Of a stretch of DNA of 25,685 bases, positions 10,310 through 25,151 are shown piece after piece. Within the stretch, counting starts at the first letter, position 1, and the number at the start of each line of letters is the position of its first letter. The position numbers were made by a program, and so were the translations under genes. The notes under the pieces were generated by a model. The model saw nothing but the letters and a program-made list of their open reading frames with translations. It was not told the origin of the DNA and did not search any database. The stretch covers positions 1-25,685 of IMG/VR virus record IMGVR_UViG_3300045993_000338, one strand, 5' to 3'. Origin of the DNA: a virus.

Positions 10310-11497
10310 CTTTGTATTATTAGTCGCTTTTTAATTACCGACTACTTAAACTCTCGCCTAAGAATAGACTATATCATCAACCAAAAACTTGTTACTTTTA
10401 GCCATATTTTCATAAGCAGGCAATATTTGTAAATTAGCCTCACAATGCAGACCAGTTACAAACTTACCTTTTAAAGGGACTATATGGTCAACATGGAACG
10501 CTATTCCTGTTAACTCAGTAAGTCTAATTGCTTCCTTATATATAGCTTTAATTTTATCTTTGTTCTTCCAAGAAACACTAGCCCTTAACTTTGCAGCTCT
10601 TCTATTTGCGTGACAGACACGTTTAATAATTGCTGCTTTTTCTGGATTAGCCAATTGCCATTTTTTAGTTTTGGCAATACGTTTCTTTTGGTTCTTATAA
10701 TAAGATGTTTTTTCATACTTAAAAACAAGTTCTGGATTAGCCTCTTTCCAAGCCTTATCTTTAACTTTGCATCTTTCTATATTAGCATCTCGCCATTTTC
10801 TAGCATTTTTAACGCATCTATCAAGATTATTTAATCTCCATTCCTTAGCCTGCTTAGACCTCTTGTCTTTATTTAAAAGATTATAGTACTTACCATAAGC
10901 TAATCTTTGCTCTCTATGAGCCTCATAACATTTTCTACTTATTCCTGATAATTTATCAGGATTAGCCAAACGGTATGATCTTTCTTTAGCTAAACATAAC
11001 TCATAATTATTGCTTCTATATTCAAGAGCCTTTTCTGCTATTACAGCAGCATTAGCCTCATAATATTTTCTGCATTCTTTTGAGCGTTTTTCCTTTCCTT
11101 CTGGTGTTGATCTTTCTAATCTTGTTCTTACGTTTAAACAACTTTTACATTCTAACGATCTTGCTTTGAACTCGGATAAAACCTTTATTTCTAAACAAAC
11201 TTTACATTTTTTGGTTGTCGGGCACTCGTGGGTTTTCATCGTCTTCACCTTTTTAATTACTGTTAGTACAAATATAGTGTACTTCCATAATTATGCAAAT
11301 AAAGACTGTATAACCTAGTCGTTGAACCTTGAACTTATCACTAAGTCCCTTGGCTGCTGATTGTCATATAAGCTAGTGTTTTCAAGCATTCACACTTACA
11401 GTCACCTGTTATGTTGTAGCCACTAACCCTTAAAGATATCCCAGCAATTCACCCAATTTTTACTTGTAGCTTACGCTGCAAGGCCACAATTAAGTTT
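10310..11497 (-). ncRNA. Group I intron 2 in the capsid gene (1188 nt, HNH-encoding)
   Basis: The 5' splice site follows exon sequence AGCCAT. Exon GCCAU pairs with intron GUGGC, with the last U opposite G (P1). P2 is CUUGCAGC-GUAA-GCUACAAG with one mismatch. P4 is UUGCUG with CAGCAG. P7 is GACUA (about 11312-11316) with UAGUC near 10368. The intron ends AATACAAAG; exon AAUUA pairs with intron UAAUU upstream of the P1 strand (P10). P5 carries a large insert of about 70 nt compared with intron 1. The HNH gene lies between the two P7 strands, as in P8-loop ORFs. Excision of 1188 nt leaves the frame intact. Confidence 0.85.
10358..11239 (-). CDS. HNH homing endonuclease of intron 2
   Basis: This 293-residue protein (ATG at 11239, AAAGGTGA site 6 nt upstream) has a zinc-finger-like N-terminus, C12xxC15 and C31xxC34. 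A long charged middle is built of about nine degenerate 15-residue units (W/Y-x-x-A/N-N-P/x-E/D-K/R). A C-terminal HNH domain follows: HVDHIVPLKG (H249, D251, H252), GLHCEANLQIL (N269), and ENMAKSNK. It should cut intronless capsid alleles near the insertion site, so the intron spreads. Its last codons run through the 3' P7 strand (VDDIVYS), so coding and ribozyme core overlap. It is divergent from the intron 1 enzyme but of the same class. Confidence 0.88.
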   Translation of the reverse strand: MKTHECPTTKKCKVCLEIKVLSEFKARSLECKSCLNVRTRLERSTPEGKEKRSKECRKYYEANAAVIAEKALEYRSNNYELCLAKERSYRLANPDKLSGISRKCYEAHREQRLAYGKYYNLLNKDKRSKQAKEWRLNNLDRCVKNARKWRDANIERCKVKDKAWKEANPELVFKYEKTSYYKNQKKRIAKTKKWQLANPEKAAIIKRVCHANRRAAKLRASVSWKNKDKIKAIYKEAIRLTELTGIAFHVDHIVPLKGKFVTGLHCEANLQILPAYENMAKSNKFLVDDIVYS

Positions 11498-11596: not shown

Positions 11597-12626
11597 CATT
11601 ATTTTTACGTCCCGTTTACAGGGCGGGAGAGTTCTTTATCTCTCCACCTTTAGTTACCTAAAGGATAGGACTATATCATCAACCAAGATGTTTATTACTT
11701 TTCCTGATATTGTCCAATTTAGTCAATATCTGCATGTTGCCATGCCAGTGTAAACCAGTTACCAACTCACCTTGTAAAGGTACAATATGATCCACCTCAT
11801 GTTGTACACCTGTACTTAATGTCAATCGCCTTGCCTCTTTGCGTAGCTCAATTATTTTAGCTGCGTTATACCAAATGGGTTTAGCTCGTTTGGCTCTGGT
11901 TCTATATCTTTCAGTCTTTTCAGTGTAATAAGAAACATTTTCTTTAAAATGTTGCTTATGATATTCCCTAATAGCATCTAGTCTTTCAGGATTAGCTTCA
12001 TAAAAAGCCTTCCTTTTTGAAACTATTAAGTCCTTATTTTCTGCATAAGTTTTAGCCAATCTGGCCTTTTCTCTAGCAATTACATCAGGCTTGTTTCTAT
12101 ACTCTTTTTTCTGAATACTTATTTTTCCAGCATTCAAAACGTTGTAACCTTTGTGATAATCTGATGATTTCTTCTTAAATTCATCCGTTGATCTTTTTAC
12201 AGCTTGATTAGCTAATTTAAATAATCGAGCTTGCTCGTTGCTGTTATAACGCTCTTTCTCTTTAGCATTCTCACAAAGTTTACATTTACCTTTCAGGTAT
12301 GTCTTTCCTTTCCTGTTGTCAAAATAACTATGGTATTCACTGACAGACTTCTCTGTATTACAAGTTTTACATAACTTGGTTGCCGCGCACTCGTGTTGTT
12401 TCATAATCTCACCTTTTAGTTAATAATATTAAATCATATTAAATAATATTATATACTACTAAGCTCTTGTTGTCTAGAGCATTTCGATGAGACCGTATAC
12501 ATTAGTCTCTGAACCTTCAATCCGTCACCGGAAAGCTTGGCTGCTGATTGCCCTTTTCAGGGGTTCCAGCAATTCACGCGGTTATTACATTGCTACTTAC
12601 GCAGCAAGGGGACTAAAATGCCATCT
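11597..12626 (-). ncRNA. Group I intron 1 in the capsid gene (1030 nt, HNH-encoding)
   Basis: The 5' splice site follows exon GGGAT. Exon GGGAU pairs with intron GUCCC, with U opposite G (P1). P10 is exon 2 AGAUGCC with intron GGCAUUU. P2 is UUGCUGC-GUAA-GUAGCAA. P3 is ACCG with CGGU. P4 is UUGCUG with CAGCAG. P7 is GACUA (in GUUCAGAGACUA) with UAGUC (in GAUAUAGUCC). P8 is CAUCGA with UUGAUG, with the HNH gene in its loop. P9 hairpins follow (GGAGAG/CUCUCC; CCCGUUUACAGGG). The intron ends TAATG. The stop of the HNH gene lies in the 3' P8 strand. This is a complete core typical of phage group I introns. Confidence 0.9.
11679..12404 (-). CDS. HNH homing endonuclease of intron 1
   Basis: This 241-residue protein starts at ATG 12404 with AAAAGGTGA upstream. 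Paired Cys occur at 12/15 and 41/44, a zinc-finger-like N-terminus. The charged middle has repeats like those of the intron 2 enzyme (YRNKPDVIAREKARL; FYEANPERLDAIREY). The C-terminal HNH domain is HEVDHIVPLQG (D205, H206), GLHWHGNMQIL (N223) and DNIRKSNK. Phage P8-loop HNH enzymes such as SPO1 I-HmuI are the nearest type. Its likely target is the intronless capsid allele. The N-terminus MKQHECAATKLCKTC parallels MKTHECPTTKKCKVC in the other enzyme, so the two share a common ancestor. Confidence 0.88.
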   Translation of the reverse strand: MKQHECAATKLCKTCNTEKSVSEYHSYFDNRKGKTYLKGKCKLCENAKEKERYNSNEQARLFKLANQAVKRSTDEFKKKSSDYHKGYNVLNAGKISIQKKEYRNKPDVIAREKARLAKTYAENKDLIVSKRKAFYEANPERLDAIREYHKQHFKENVSYYTEKTERYRTRAKRAKPIWYNAAKIIELRKEARRLTLSTGVQHEVDHIVPLQGELVTGLHWHGNMQILTKLDNIRKSNKHLG

Positions 12627-15515: not shown

Positions 15516-15998
15516 TTACAAATTAATCAAAAATTCATAAGCTTCTTTATTCCATCTGGCATCTTCAAGCGCGTTATGTTCGCCTTTTTTTTGTTCCGGT
15601 AACTCAATATTGCCCAATGAATCACATAATTGCTTAATATCGCAAGTGTACATCGGCCAACCCTCTGGTAAATCCATCATCGTGCCGAATAACTGGCATA
15701 AGACTACATGGTCATAGTCCGCGTAATACGCCCAAAATTCAGGCTTATCATTCCCAATAAACGCTAAAAGTTCTTTCCTTATCTTGTTGCGCGTTCGGTA
15801 ATAAGCTAAGCCTTCATTAGATTCCCTATTTGGCAACTGTATTAATACGTTTTCCCAAACCCACGGAGAAGCATTTGCAGAGTCAAATTCCGTACTAATT
15901 GCATAATACTCACGGCCATCATCAGCCACCACACCTATTGAAATAAGGTCAATGGTCGAACCATCGTCTATAAATTCGCAATCGTAAAAATATTTCAT
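15516..15998 (-). CDS. DEDDh 3'-5' exonuclease (Rv2179c-like)
   Basis: The ATG at 15998 gives 160 residues; it lies 1 nt after the stop of the upstream gene. The sequence has the DnaQ-fold motifs: YDCEFID (D6, E8), WAYYADYDHVVL (D94/D96) and HNALEDARWNKEAY (H141, D146). The pattern, the short size and 'DcEF' instead of 'D.EtTG' fit the Rv2179c-like 3'-5' exoribonuclease family (PF16473). It would remove nucleotides from 3' ends of RNA or single-stranded DNA. It ends a run of short overlapping genes downstream of the portal. Confidence 0.82.
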   Translation of the reverse strand: MKYFYDCEFIDDGSTIDLISIGVVADDGREYYAISTEFDSANASPWVWENVLIQLPNRESNEGLAYYRTRNKIRKELLAFIGNDKPEFWAYYADYDHVVLCQLFGTMMDLPEGWPMYTCDIKQLCDSLGNIELPEQKKGEHNALEDARWNKEAYEFLINL

Positions 15999-15999
15999 A

Positions 16000-16188
16000 T
16001 TATTGATTTTTATTAAAACGGCGTTCTTGTTCCTGCTCATACCGTATTTGTGATTCGTATTTAAGTCTATCCTGCAACATTTTTATTTGTTTGGTATTAC
16101 TTACGTTCTTTTTACCAGACAATACCTCTTGATAGTCTTTTAACATGGCACGTGCTTTATCATCTCTTTCAAGTATCTGGGTAGACAT
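16000..16188 (-). CDS. Small helical phage protein, unknown
   Basis: The likely start is ATG 16188 with AAAGGTGAATAGA upstream, giving 62 residues; a GTG three codons earlier also exists. It is very hydrophilic and helical, with a KARAMLKDYQEVLSGKK segment and a Glu/Arg/Gln-rich C-terminus. It starts 1 nt after the stop of the previous small gene and ends 1 nt before the exonuclease start. No function is recognised. Confidence 0.55.
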   Translation of the reverse strand: MSTQILERDDKARAMLKDYQEVLSGKKNVSNTKQIKMLQDRLKYESQIRYEQEQERRFNKNQ

Positions 16189-21963: not shown

Positions 21964-22092
21964 CTATTTAAAGGCTATTGCCGCAGCAATGCGCAGCCCT
22001 CTTATACGTGATTTATTAACCACGGTGTAGTTATGCCCGTTACTTAGTCTAACGGCAATCCAATATAAGCCTTCTATTTTCTTGATAGTCAT
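21964..22092 (-). CDS. 42-residue small protein, coupled to upstream gene
   Basis: The ATG at 22092 overlaps the stop of the preceding gene (ATGA). The product starts MTIKKIEGLYWIAVRLSNGHNYTVVN and ends KSRIRGLRIAAAIAFK. It is basic with a beta pattern at the N-terminus and a helix at the end. It fills most of an otherwise empty 190-nt stretch. The coupling supports a real gene. Function unknown. Confidence 0.55.
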   Translation of the reverse strand: MTIKKIEGLYWIAVRLSNGHNYTVVNKSRIRGLRIAAAIAFK

Positions 22093-22313
22093 TTCATAAA
22101 CTCATCAGCTGTAGTGTCAGCATCAACCACCGTTAAATGATTCGGTTTGATAGATATGCGGCCTTCGTTAAAGGCTTCAATTAATTGTCTCAAGACAAAG
22201 CTACTGCCGCCATAAGTTTTCGCTTTGCTCACAAACTTATCTTTATTAACCACACTGAGTTGACAGCCAAGGATGCTTTTCTCAAACGTGGGTTTAACTT
22301 CCAGTCCATCCAT
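22089..22313 (-). CDS. Putative ribbon-helix-helix-like small regulator
   Basis: ATG at 22313 with AAAGGTGATTAAA upstream gives 74 residues; a GTG three codons before also exists. The segment CQLSVVNKDKFVSKAKTYGGSSFVLRQLIEAFNEGRI looks like a ribbon-helix-helix unit: a short strand, then two helices with a Gly between ('a..yG.SsfvlRqLI.af'). This is suggestive, not secure. It is the first gene after the iteron-rich region, so it could act there. Its ribosome-binding site overlaps an 8-bp inverted repeat (22323-22343). It ends coupled to the 42-residue gene. Confidence 0.5.
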   Translation of the reverse strand: MDGLEVKPTFEKSILGCQLSVVNKDKFVSKAKTYGGSSFVLRQLIEAFNEGRISIKPNHLTVVDADTTADEFMK

Positions 22314-22322
22314 TTTAATCAC

Positions 22323-22343
22323 CTTTAAAATTTATTTTTAAAG
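22323..22343 (-). promoter_or_regulatory. Inverted repeat over a ribosome-binding site
   Basis: On the minus strand CTTTAAAA (22343-22336), five nt, and TTTTAAAG (22330-22323) make a perfect 8-bp-arm hairpin. Its last bases are part of the AAAGGTGA site of the gene starting at 22313. A second 7-bp pair (AGTTTAA/TTAAACT at 22342-22367) lies just upstream. Both are AT-rich and weak; an operator or a translation-control hairpin is possible. Confidence 0.35.
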
Positions 22344-22419
22344 TTTAATTGTAACATATTTTAAACTAAACTCAGTGTTTTAGTATTGTTTCCTAATAGT
22401 TTACAATCTATAGATTTTT

Positions 22420-22596
22420 GTAGACGTTTGTAGACAGTGTAGACATTTGTAGACGTGTATAAACGTGTAGAAAAATAGACATTTTGTAGACAATTTTGTC
22501 TACAAATCCAGAACTCAATGGGAATGCGGGTTGTAATGGTGTTTATATATATAATATATATATATGTAGACAGATAGACACACACACAGGGTAGAC
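22420..22596 (+). repeat. GTAGAC iteron array
   Basis: GTAGAC occurs at 22420, 22430, 22439, 22449, 22486, 22566 and 22591 on the plus strand, with close variants at 22467 (GTAGAA), 22475 and 22574 (ATAGAC). The first four are phased at about one helical turn (10, 9, 10 bp), often as TTTGTAGAC. Such phasing favours cooperative protein binding on one DNA face. The reverse form GTCTAC is at 22498, 22679, 22687 and 22750. Confidence 0.8.
22483..22506. promoter_or_regulatory. Perfect palindrome built from two iterons
   Basis: TTTGTAGACAA and TTGTCTACAAA are perfect complements with a 2-nt TT spacer. Each arm holds one GTAGAC unit, so two repeats face each other. It lacks a U-run after it, so a terminator is unlikely; a dimer-binding site for an initiator or repressor fits better. 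Confidence 0.65.
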
Positions 22597-22751
22597 GGTT
22601 TTTAGGTCAACGGTACGCTTTTACGTACGCTTTTCACATGTAACCATCTGTCCGCGAGGGGGGGGGTGTCCCGATTTTGTCTACACGTCTACTTTGCCAT
22701 GTTTTCCCAATACTATCAATAACTTAAAAAATCTACATATTTGTCTAATGT

Positions 22752-24938
22752 CTACTGGGATTTGCACCTATATAATCGAGTTCCCTCTAAAATACACGTC
22801 CCTTCACTCACTAAAGCCTGAACAACTTGTCGTTGCGTACCAATTTCCAGCTTCTTATAACTCCTCGACCAGTTACCCAGATGAGCAATTTGAATAGCTT
22901 TATCTCTGCAACCACCTTGCGTAAAAGCATGGCGAAGTTGTTGCAACACTTTAGAACTCAAACTACTATCATTTAAACCGCCAGCAGCTTGCAAGCAGCT
23001 TCTAAACTTATAATATAAATTCAAGCGAATGGTGTAAGCCAACACCATATCATCTACGCTCATCACACACCTGTGGTTACTTAAGGCAAAGATGGCGGCA
23101 TCTTTAATAGCCTGTTCGCTCAACCGTCCGGCAAAGCAGCTATCTTGAATTTTCAGTGGCATCACGATCGTTTGATCGATCTCAATATATTTCTCCCAAG
23201 ATTCATCGCTAAACTCAATCCATTCGGGCTGAGTTCTATCGAGTATAAAATCCAAATCATTTAAGCATTGCTCAGGTACGCTATAAATCTCCCGCCCTCT
23301 TAAATATTGCTTTTGAGGCATTTCCTCACAAACATGGATAACAAAGCGATTGTATGTGCCACTGTGGGCATGGCTGCTGGTAAACGATTCCAAGGCCCGC
23401 TCAATAGTGCTAAAAGAGAAAAGCCCGATATTCGGGTTTTGTACAGCCTCATAATCACTGTCTTTAGTTTGCGGCGGGCATACCCATCCATTGACTGCTT
23501 TGGTATAGCATTCCATCATGTAACCCATTGCTTCCTGTTTACAGCCTGCCTTATGTGTGGATACCAGATATTCGCCTAACTCATCCTGGATAAAATGTTG
23601 ATGATTATTACTTTCTAAAAGCCGGTGCAAGCCTTGTTGACTGGAGGGCAGGGCTCTATTCAAATTAAAATCCGGTGCGATATGGTTAGGTGCGTCCATT
23701 ACCCGATTGAATACTTTTATAATGCTTTCTTTGCCAAATGAGGTAGGCGCCAGAATAATAATATTCTCGTTAAAACCTAGGCCTTCCTGGCTATCAATGG
23801 ACTTGGTTGTAGAGGCATACGCCTTATATAAGGATAGCGCGGTTAATCCAGCCACCTCCATATCTGGATTAATTAAGGTTGAATAGATATGCCGTTGCAA
23901 TAAGCCAAGCCCATCGGGTAAGTTAGTGAGGCTATAGCCTGTAGTGTTATCCGGCAAGGGTCTGAGCTGTAGGGGGTCAATATCGGGAAGTTCCTCCTGC
24001 ATCTCTTTCATTGTTTCAGCCCGTTTAGCGATTAAGGACTCAAAGTGCAAAGCTTTGCTTTTTTGTTCAATCCTTAAGGATTCCTGGTATTGCCTGGCAC
24101 TGTGGATAGTATCTGACACATAGGATGAGCTTTTCTTACGTACTAGCGTATGCTTATACAGCTCGCTCATTTTAAAAATGCGTTCACCCTGGCCTTGATT
24201 CAAGGTGTAGAAGGCAATGATAAGAGACAGTGCAGCATCGGCCTCTGAGGCGCTTTTATAGCCGTATCTGTTGCGCCAGTCCTGTTCATGTGTTGCCCAA
24301 CTGTTCATAAATAAATCCTGGAACTTGGGACAACTTTTAGACGCTTGAATTTTATTAACCACAGCCATATCGTCATCGGTAGGCTCAGGGTTATCGAGGT
24401 CTATACTGTGGGTAATTGCGGGTTTCATATGCGCGGCGAGCTTTTCCAAAAGCTCATTGCCGTCAACGATGTCGCGTTGGAGATACGTGTTACCTGTGAA
24501 AATGATAAAACGAGCTTGACTGTAAAGCTCAACGCCGTGTTTATCGTCTCTTAAGCCTTTGCCACTTTTATTGACACGTAAAATAATGTGGAAACCCGTA
24601 TTAGATTTTGAACGCTCGGTGAAAGAATTGGCTTGCAATATGAGTGCCTCAAACTCCGGCTGTCTTTCGGGTAAGCCTTTTTTATTATCCAAATCGACAC
24701 AGGCGTATGGATCCCTGGCTGTAAAGATAAAGCCAATGTAATGCTTAACACCTGTGGACACCTCGTTAAGCTTGGCAAACTCTAACGCTGTGGTAAAGGG
24801 CATCCAGGTTTTAGGGTTAACTACACTGGCGTTAATTAACCCGTTACCTGTGCTATATTTGGGGGCTTTATCGTGGTCGTTAGCAATGCACCATTGCGGT
24901 AGCTCCTGTAGTTCTGTTGGAATAGTTTCATAGCCCAT
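22752..24938 (-). CDS. Primase-polymerase/helicase-like replication protein
   Basis: This 728-residue protein starts with an archaeo-eukaryotic-primase-like domain (about 10-165): PQWCIANDHDKAPKY, AKL..., YACVDLDN (D82, D84), SNTGFHIILR (near H117) and VELYSQARFIIFTG (E137). Next is a helical segment like the NrS-1-type helix bundle (about 228-285: SASEADAALSLIIAFYTLNQG). A helicase-like part follows at about 335-600, with ILAPTSFGKES (K403) and HFIQDELGEYL (about 449-456). The loop has Ala for the first Gly and Glu after Lys, so ATPase activity is uncertain. It probably primes and unwinds at the adjacent iteron region. AGGTG precedes the ATG. Confidence 0.8.
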   Translation of the reverse strand: MGYETIPTELQELPQWCIANDHDKAPKYSTGNGLINASVVNPKTWMPFTTALEFAKLNEVSTGVKHYIGFIFTARDPYACVDLDNKKGLPERQPEFEALILQANSFTERSKSNTGFHIILRVNKSGKGLRDDKHGVELYSQARFIIFTGNTYLQRDIVDGNELLEKLAAHMKPAITHSIDLDNPEPTDDDMAVVNKIQASKSCPKFQDLFMNSWATHEQDWRNRYGYKSASEADAALSLIIAFYTLNQGQGERIFKMSELYKHTLVRKKSSSYVSDTIHSARQYQESLRIEQKSKALHFESLIAKRAETMKEMQEELPDIDPLQLRPLPDNTTGYSLTNLPDGLGLLQRHIYSTLINPDMEVAGLTALSLYKAYASTTKSIDSQEGLGFNENIIILAPTSFGKESIIKVFNRVMDAPNHIAPDFNLNRALPSSQQGLHRLLESNNHQHFIQDELGEYLVSTHKAGCKQEAMGYMMECYTKAVNGWVCPPQTKDSDYEAVQNPNIGLFSFSTIERALESFTSSHAHSGTYNRFVIHVCEEMPQKQYLRGREIYSVPEQCLNDLDFILDRTQPEWIEFSDESWEKYIEIDQTIVMPLKIQDSCFAGRLSEQAIKDAAIFALSNHRCVMSVDDMVLAYTIRLNLYYKFRSCLQAAGGLNDSSLSSKVLQQLRHAFTQGGCRDKAIQIAHLGNWSRSYKKLEIGTQRQVVQALVSEGTCILEGTRLYRCKSQ

Positions 24939-24941
24939 AAA

Positions 24942-25151
24942 TTACACCTGTCTAGATGTAATAAGGTACTCCCCGTCCATGTAATCTTTAAGGTCTTTAA
25001 CCTTATAGTAATAGCGTCCCCCTCGCCTTATACAAACAGGGCCTTTAAGTTTGTGCCGGTAGATATGCAGCGTCATTCTAGTCAGAGGGATATATTTGCT
25101 GGCTTCTTTCGCAGACAGTAATTCTTCATCGGGTAGGTCGTTGAGTGTCAT
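24942..25151 (-). CDS. MerR/AlpA-type HTH DNA-binding protein
   Basis: This 69-residue protein reads LLSAKEASKYIPLTRMTLHIYRHKLKGPVCIRRGGRYYYKVKDLKDYMDG. That is the HTH_17 pattern: a helix-turn-helix, then the wing 'g....R.g.r.yy...dL..ym'. AlpA or excisionase-type proteins of this size act as small regulators or directionality factors. It starts with AGGTATTCCT before the ATG, ends 3 nt before the replication gene, and faces the divergent control region. Confidence 0.82.
   Translation of the reverse strand: MTLNDLPDEELLSAKEASKYIPLTRMTLHIYRHKLKGPVCIRRGGRYYYKVKDLKDYMDGEYLITSRQV

Follow-up and report, generated by a model that had tools for sequence, protein, structure and literature searches.

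A probable iteron replication origin behind the primase-polymerase/helicase gene of a tailed phage, and lineage-specific repeat arrays behind homologous genes

The DNA analysed here, called the window, is a linear IMG/VR virus record of 25,685 bp (IMGVR_UViG_3300045993_000338) with genes typical of a tailed phage, among which family matches identified an SU10-type portal, a terminase, a RuvC-like resolvase and tail genes. Within the structural gene block, two adjoining ORFs (10358-11248 and 11679-12404, minus strand) match endonuclease VII/HNH-type families (phrog_1035 and phrog_26577); they may be homing endonucleases or the two members of a duplication. One of the genes in the head region specifies an RNase H-family phage protein (phrog_2259; 15516-16040, minus strand). 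The region of interest contains three genes on the minus strand. A 69-aa protein with a match to the HTH_17 family (24942..25151), probably the regulator of the primase operon, is encoded directly upstream of a 728-aa primase-polymerase/helicase (22752..24938), the proposed initiator. The stop of the latter gene (22752) and the start of a small gene (22313 or 22322) delimit a noncoding gap. This small gene (22089..22313) encodes a protein of 74 to 77 aa, which has a homologue in the sister contig L015, looks ribbon-helix-helix (RHH)-like when judged by eye only, and gave no Pfam match.

The gap holds eleven exact copies of GTAGAC/GTCTAC, located at 22420, 22430, 22439, 22449, 22486, 22498 (minus strand), 22566, 22591, and 22679, 22687 and 22750 (all three minus strand). 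They span 336 bp (22420-22755), in agreement with a preliminary description made from the sequence. All eleven units extend to GTAGACR (R being A in seven and G in four), with the consensus ttTGTAGACRtt, and degenerate units (TAGACA, GTAGAA) occupy some of the spaces between exact copies. The hexamer occurs 20 times in the whole window against 8.3 expected, the nine copies outside the cluster being at chance level. In 300 dinucleotide shuffles of the window no 340-bp stretch contained more than three copies, compared with the eleven observed, so that the excess is not accounted for by base composition; when any hexamer was allowed (100 shuffles), the maximum was six per 340 bp. Four iterons form a phased tandem set distal to the primase gene (22420..22454, plus strand) with steps of 10, 9 and 10 bp, which bears out the proposed phasing at the helical repeat. 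The repeats are thus clustered beyond chance and phased at about one helical turn, as is characteristic of iteron-type origins. The exact-copy search places two further iterons (22566 and 22591; 22566..22596, plus strand) at the flank of an A/T tract, and three proximal ones in the opposite orientation (22679..22755, minus strand), the last of which (22750) overlaps the primase stop; as first noticed, the primase-helicase gene therefore ends inside the array.

The other elements described for the gap were largely found as reported. Two facing units form a perfect palindrome (22483..22506), TTTGTAGACAA-TT-TTGTCTACAAA, with arms of 11 bp (22483-22493 and 22496-22506) and a 2-bp spacer; the 10-bp direct repeat GTACGCTTTT is present twice (22613..22634, copies at 22613 and 22625); and the sequence analysis fixed the position of the run of nine G at 22658..22666. 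The tract described as 25 bp of alternating A and T proved to be an A/T-only run of 24 bp (22542..22565) in which the alternation is broken once. As read from the sequence, it lies between the two iteron sets, and it is a candidate unwinding element of the kind that adjoins the repeats in iteron-type origins. The phased set and the palindrome are on one side of this tract and the other units across it, the three nearest the primase stop being reversed. A 74-residue ORF (22361-22585), formerly listed among the candidate binding proteins, was rejected as a gene: it is probably not real, because it lacks relatives and consists mostly of translated repeat. Searches of Rfam and of plasmids returned no match.

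The palindrome could also be mainly a terminator of the primase operon, the repeats having another replication role or none. A consensus scan does score 22506-22483 (minus strand) as terminator-like, and the 60 bases around it fold, as RNA, to -14.3 kcal/mol; the stem, however, contains only three G-C pairs, and a terminator would leave unexplained both the eleven units over 336 bp and the recurrence of arrays in other phages (see below). We regard this explanation as very improbable.

The domain make-up of the 728-aa protein was established from its sequence and its predicted fold. It matches phage primase families and, above the cut-off of the family, the NrS-1 HBD domain (PF22763), and its N-terminal third matches the solved NrS-1 PrimPol structures. 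The primase chain 7ola (797 aa), which we take to be a SaPI5 protein, is matched over residues 6-256 only, leaving the helicase half without a sequence match. The PrimPol catalytic positions (DxD, SxH-type and R) are conserved in the homologue alignments, as expected for an NrS-1-like PrimPol. An AlphaFold2 model based on a 66-sequence alignment (mean pLDDT 82.5, pTM 0.50) displays an MCM-like AAA+ domain at residues 338-648 (22995..23927, minus strand), which aligns with MCM AAA+ domains with Z of about 19 and an rmsd of 3.5 over 263-270 residues, some of the MCM matches to the predicted model extending to residue 728 and thus into the MCM winged helix. This likeness comes from the fold of the predicted model, as a match to MCM sequence families was not found. 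Residues 657-725 (22764..22970, minus strand), the proposed iteron-binding domain, form a winged-helix-like region in a low-confidence model: the last 70 residues adopt a winged-helix topology with lower confidence than the rest, the tail modelled alone has a mean pLDDT of 65.8, and the top rows of a tail-only fold search of the PDB were mostly winged-helix proteins, none of them significant.

A comparison with the contigs L015 and L196, which represent a sister lineage of the window phage (identities for L015: portal 85%, TerL 83%, RuvC 66%), bears on which protein recognises the repeats. L196 retains the HTH protein (57% identity), PrimPol plus HBD (43% over residues 1-327, E 6e-81), RuvC and the terminase. 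Past residue 327, BLAST detected no significant similarity between its primase and the window protein, and its helicase part matches DUF3987. In the 455-bp gap after the L196 primase, which is common to L015, there is not a single GTAGAC unit and no 7-mer is present in more than three copies. L015 retains the 77-aa protein (42%) and a 61-aa protein. The array is therefore missing where the helicase/C-terminal half is a different one, although the remaining candidate binders are kept; the repeats appear to follow this half of the primase, and the comparison suggests that origin specificity resides there. It is a single comparison, and the kept HTH and small protein could have shifted specificity. 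The L196 primase gene (L196:4353-6557) looks like the product of a domain swap near residue 327 amid conserved neighbouring genes, its PrimPol/HBD part being alike and its DUF3987-type helicase half unrelated. In another close portal/terminase relative a DUF5906 helicase-like gene is located upstream instead (L008:157-1551). Replication modules thus seem, from such comparisons, to have been exchanged within the phage group of the window.

Two regulatory explanations were considered against the same comparison. Ribbon-helix-helix proteins often bind tandem short boxes, and the array could be the operator/promoter of the small gene starting at 22313 (minus strand), bound by its product: four phased units are positioned about 100 bp before the gene start, and the protein is RHH-like by eye. 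Yet the RHH assignment has no Pfam support, L015 keeps the homologue (42%) with a gap devoid of a GTAGAC array, and in distant phages the arrays come after the primase while the next gene varies, which makes this role unlikely. Slightly more doubtful still is that the array serves as the site of the 69-aa HTH protein, acting as a regulator or as an accessory origin protein. A small HTH gene is located directly before the primase at most homologue loci, and the gene order of pRN1, with its repressor, is alike (PMC4234260), but the HTH protein of L196 is 57% identical with no array present, and most relatives have a different-looking HTH protein in this position. Among the binders first proposed, the primase-helicase is hence retained, its C-terminal half being favoured. 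The HTH and the small protein encoded downstream are less likely, since relatives of both persist in the L196/L015 lineage without the array.

Arrays were further sought behind homologous genes. Homologue loci were drawn from cultured phages and IMG/VR, giving 66 after dereplication (window included), and their proteins are mostly 20-27% identical to the window protein in the alignments. At most of these loci a small, usually HTH-like gene directly precedes the primase; in most relatives (L282-L361) its product is small and HTH-like and bears an NPSVNRVQ-type motif, in contrast to the HTH_17/MerR-like protein of the window and of L196. An array was scored when the 450 bp past the primase stop contained at least five copies of one 7-mer, a test that misses degenerate repeats. 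It was positive at 20 of the 66 loci, whereas of 1149 other windows taken from these loci 23 were positive, an odds ratio of 21. When only gaps of 200 bp or longer were considered, arrays were found in 13 of the 29 directly after the primase versus 2 of the 73 elsewhere. The p-values of these comparisons assume independent loci, an assumption that holds only in part. The remaining 46 loci, Septimatrevirus phages included, were negative by the 7-mer test, and their origins may therefore be elsewhere or degenerate.

The spelling of the repeats varies by lineage (TATCCCC, CCGAAAAC, AATGAGTA, ATCTAATA and others): GGGGATA is the repeat in Stenotrophomonas, Variovorax and Pseudomonas phages, CCGAAAACA that of Achromobacter phage Axy18, and AATGAGTA, ATCTAATA, TACCCTA and others are found in IMG/VR contigs. 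Several loci have a layout in common, with units in one orientation near the primase, followed by a reversed tandem trio (steps of 8-12 bp) and AT-rich DNA. A run of at least five G or C is located 60-160 bp past the primase stop at 14 of 19 array-bearing loci against 1.5 expected, and at 13 of the 19 once the iterons are masked. Iteron similarity correlated about equally with all domains of the protein in a Mantel test, so that the tail is not singled out.

The expectation that the same hexamer would be found near the replication genes of related phages fails as a test, because the hexamer changes across lineages while position and layout recur. No closely related phage with an identical iteron was found, the primase used as a single query gave no match in IMG/VR, and 35 portal-related records contained no match to the window primase at the sensitivity of the search tool. 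A scan of the collection for triple TGTAGAC returned at least 120 loci, and a primase profile, which recognised its own members as positive control, found no window-type primase among the matches listed; the hexamer alone is therefore not diagnostic. These stretches, at least 120 from IMG/VR (L076 onward), carry three close TGTAGAC units without a window-type primase, and there may be further origins or operators among them that use this word.

GC skew, proposed at the outset as a check for an origin peak, is higher downstream of the primase gene than within it at 16 of 19 array-bearing loci (p 0.0017), with a weaker trend the same way at loci without arrays (p 0.022). This signal is weak and confounded and does not form part of the main evidence: in two phages the skew curve of the whole genome reaches neither a maximum nor a minimum at the gap, and the minimum of the cumulative GC skew of the window (23586) is off the array by about 0.8 kb.

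The best-supported reading of these data, as far as sequence can tell, is an iteron-type origin beside the primase-helicase gene, given that lineage-specific arrays with opposed sets, AT-rich DNA and a G/C run recur behind homologous genes. We therefore consider it likely that 22420-22755 is an iteron replication origin and that the neighbouring PrimPol-helicase recognises it through its C-terminal part. By analogy with SaPI Rep, SCCmec Cch2, P4 alpha and pRN1, which are the basis for the binding, melting and priming steps, the PrimPol-helicase would bind the TGTAGACR iterons, in two opposed sets, through its C-terminal winged-helix-like region; its MCM-like AAA+ rings would assemble there, the A/T tract between the sets would be melted, and priming of both strands would yield two forks and bidirectional replication. 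More broadly, and with about even chances, these phages may represent a widespread replicon class in which one polypeptide (PrimPol, MCM-like AAA+ and winged helix) is served by a private iteron origin behind its gene. The helicase/C-terminal half and the iterons would change together, and origin specificity would therefore be exchangeable as a unit, without replacement of PrimPol, HTH or any other part of the genome.

To our knowledge, the origins of most phages with archaeo-eukaryotic-type primases are unknown. The location of an origin directly behind the gene of an initiator helicase is already known; searches of the open-access literature turned up no description of iteron origins that vary by lineage behind the NrS-1-like PrimPol family. 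A positional rule follows, by which an origin is to be sought where the gap behind a PrimPol-helicase gene combines opposed iterons of lineage-specific spelling with AT-rich DNA and a G/C run. It points to candidate origins in cultured Pseudomonas, Stenotrophomonas, Achromobacter and Variovorax phages, among them Achromobacter phage Axy18 (gap at 7.25-7.64 kb) and Stenotrophomonas phage ply2008005c (gap at 6.65-7.03 kb), and with the L196 comparison the evolution of initiator-origin pairs becomes open to direct tests.

Among known systems, the P4 alpha protein, according to the summary in PMC4234260, binds origin repeats by a winged helix, unwinds and primes. The window protein is proposed by analogy to unite the same three activities, although the primase domain of P4 alpha is of the bacterial (Toprim) type. 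Kazlauskas and colleagues (PMC5862659) predicted that the DUF3987/DUF927 proteins partnering primases function as helicases, and suggested that winged helices bind the origin. The NrS-1 primase-polymerase is similar by sequence and fold in its N-terminal PrimPol and HBD, but the helicase reported for it is SF3-like, with a novel Head and a novel Tail (PMC7102993), whereas the AAA+ part of the window protein best matches MCM in the predicted fold. The replicon of pRN1 (orf56/orf904) consists of a gene for a small DNA-binding protein, a gene combining PrimPol, helicase and C-terminal winged helix, and an origin downstream, and Bordetella phage BIP-1 has a replication protein similar to that of pRN1; for PrimPol-SF3-winged-helix proteins, that of BIP-1 included, the pRN1 authors proposed a stem-loop and not iterons (PMC4234260). 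The pRN1/BIP-1 systems differ in having a large stem-loop, no iteron origin and an SF3 helicase where the window has an MCM-like fold. A large stem-loop (about 100 nt) was not found downstream of the window's replication gene, where the largest perfect hairpin is the 24-bp palindrome. A further parallel in organization is provided by SaPI Rep and SCCmec Cch2. Each of these initiators binds, through its C-terminal domain, repeats immediately downstream of its own gene (PMC7581432): there, as proposed for the window, the gene of an initiator helicase is followed by an origin made up of several short iterons. SaPI and SCCmec are satellite or cassette elements and the window is a tailed phage, and the SaPI rep-ori iterons are unrelated in sequence to those of the window. 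By this analogy the window origin would work like SaPI rep-ori and resembles that of pRN1, and it is a member of neither group.
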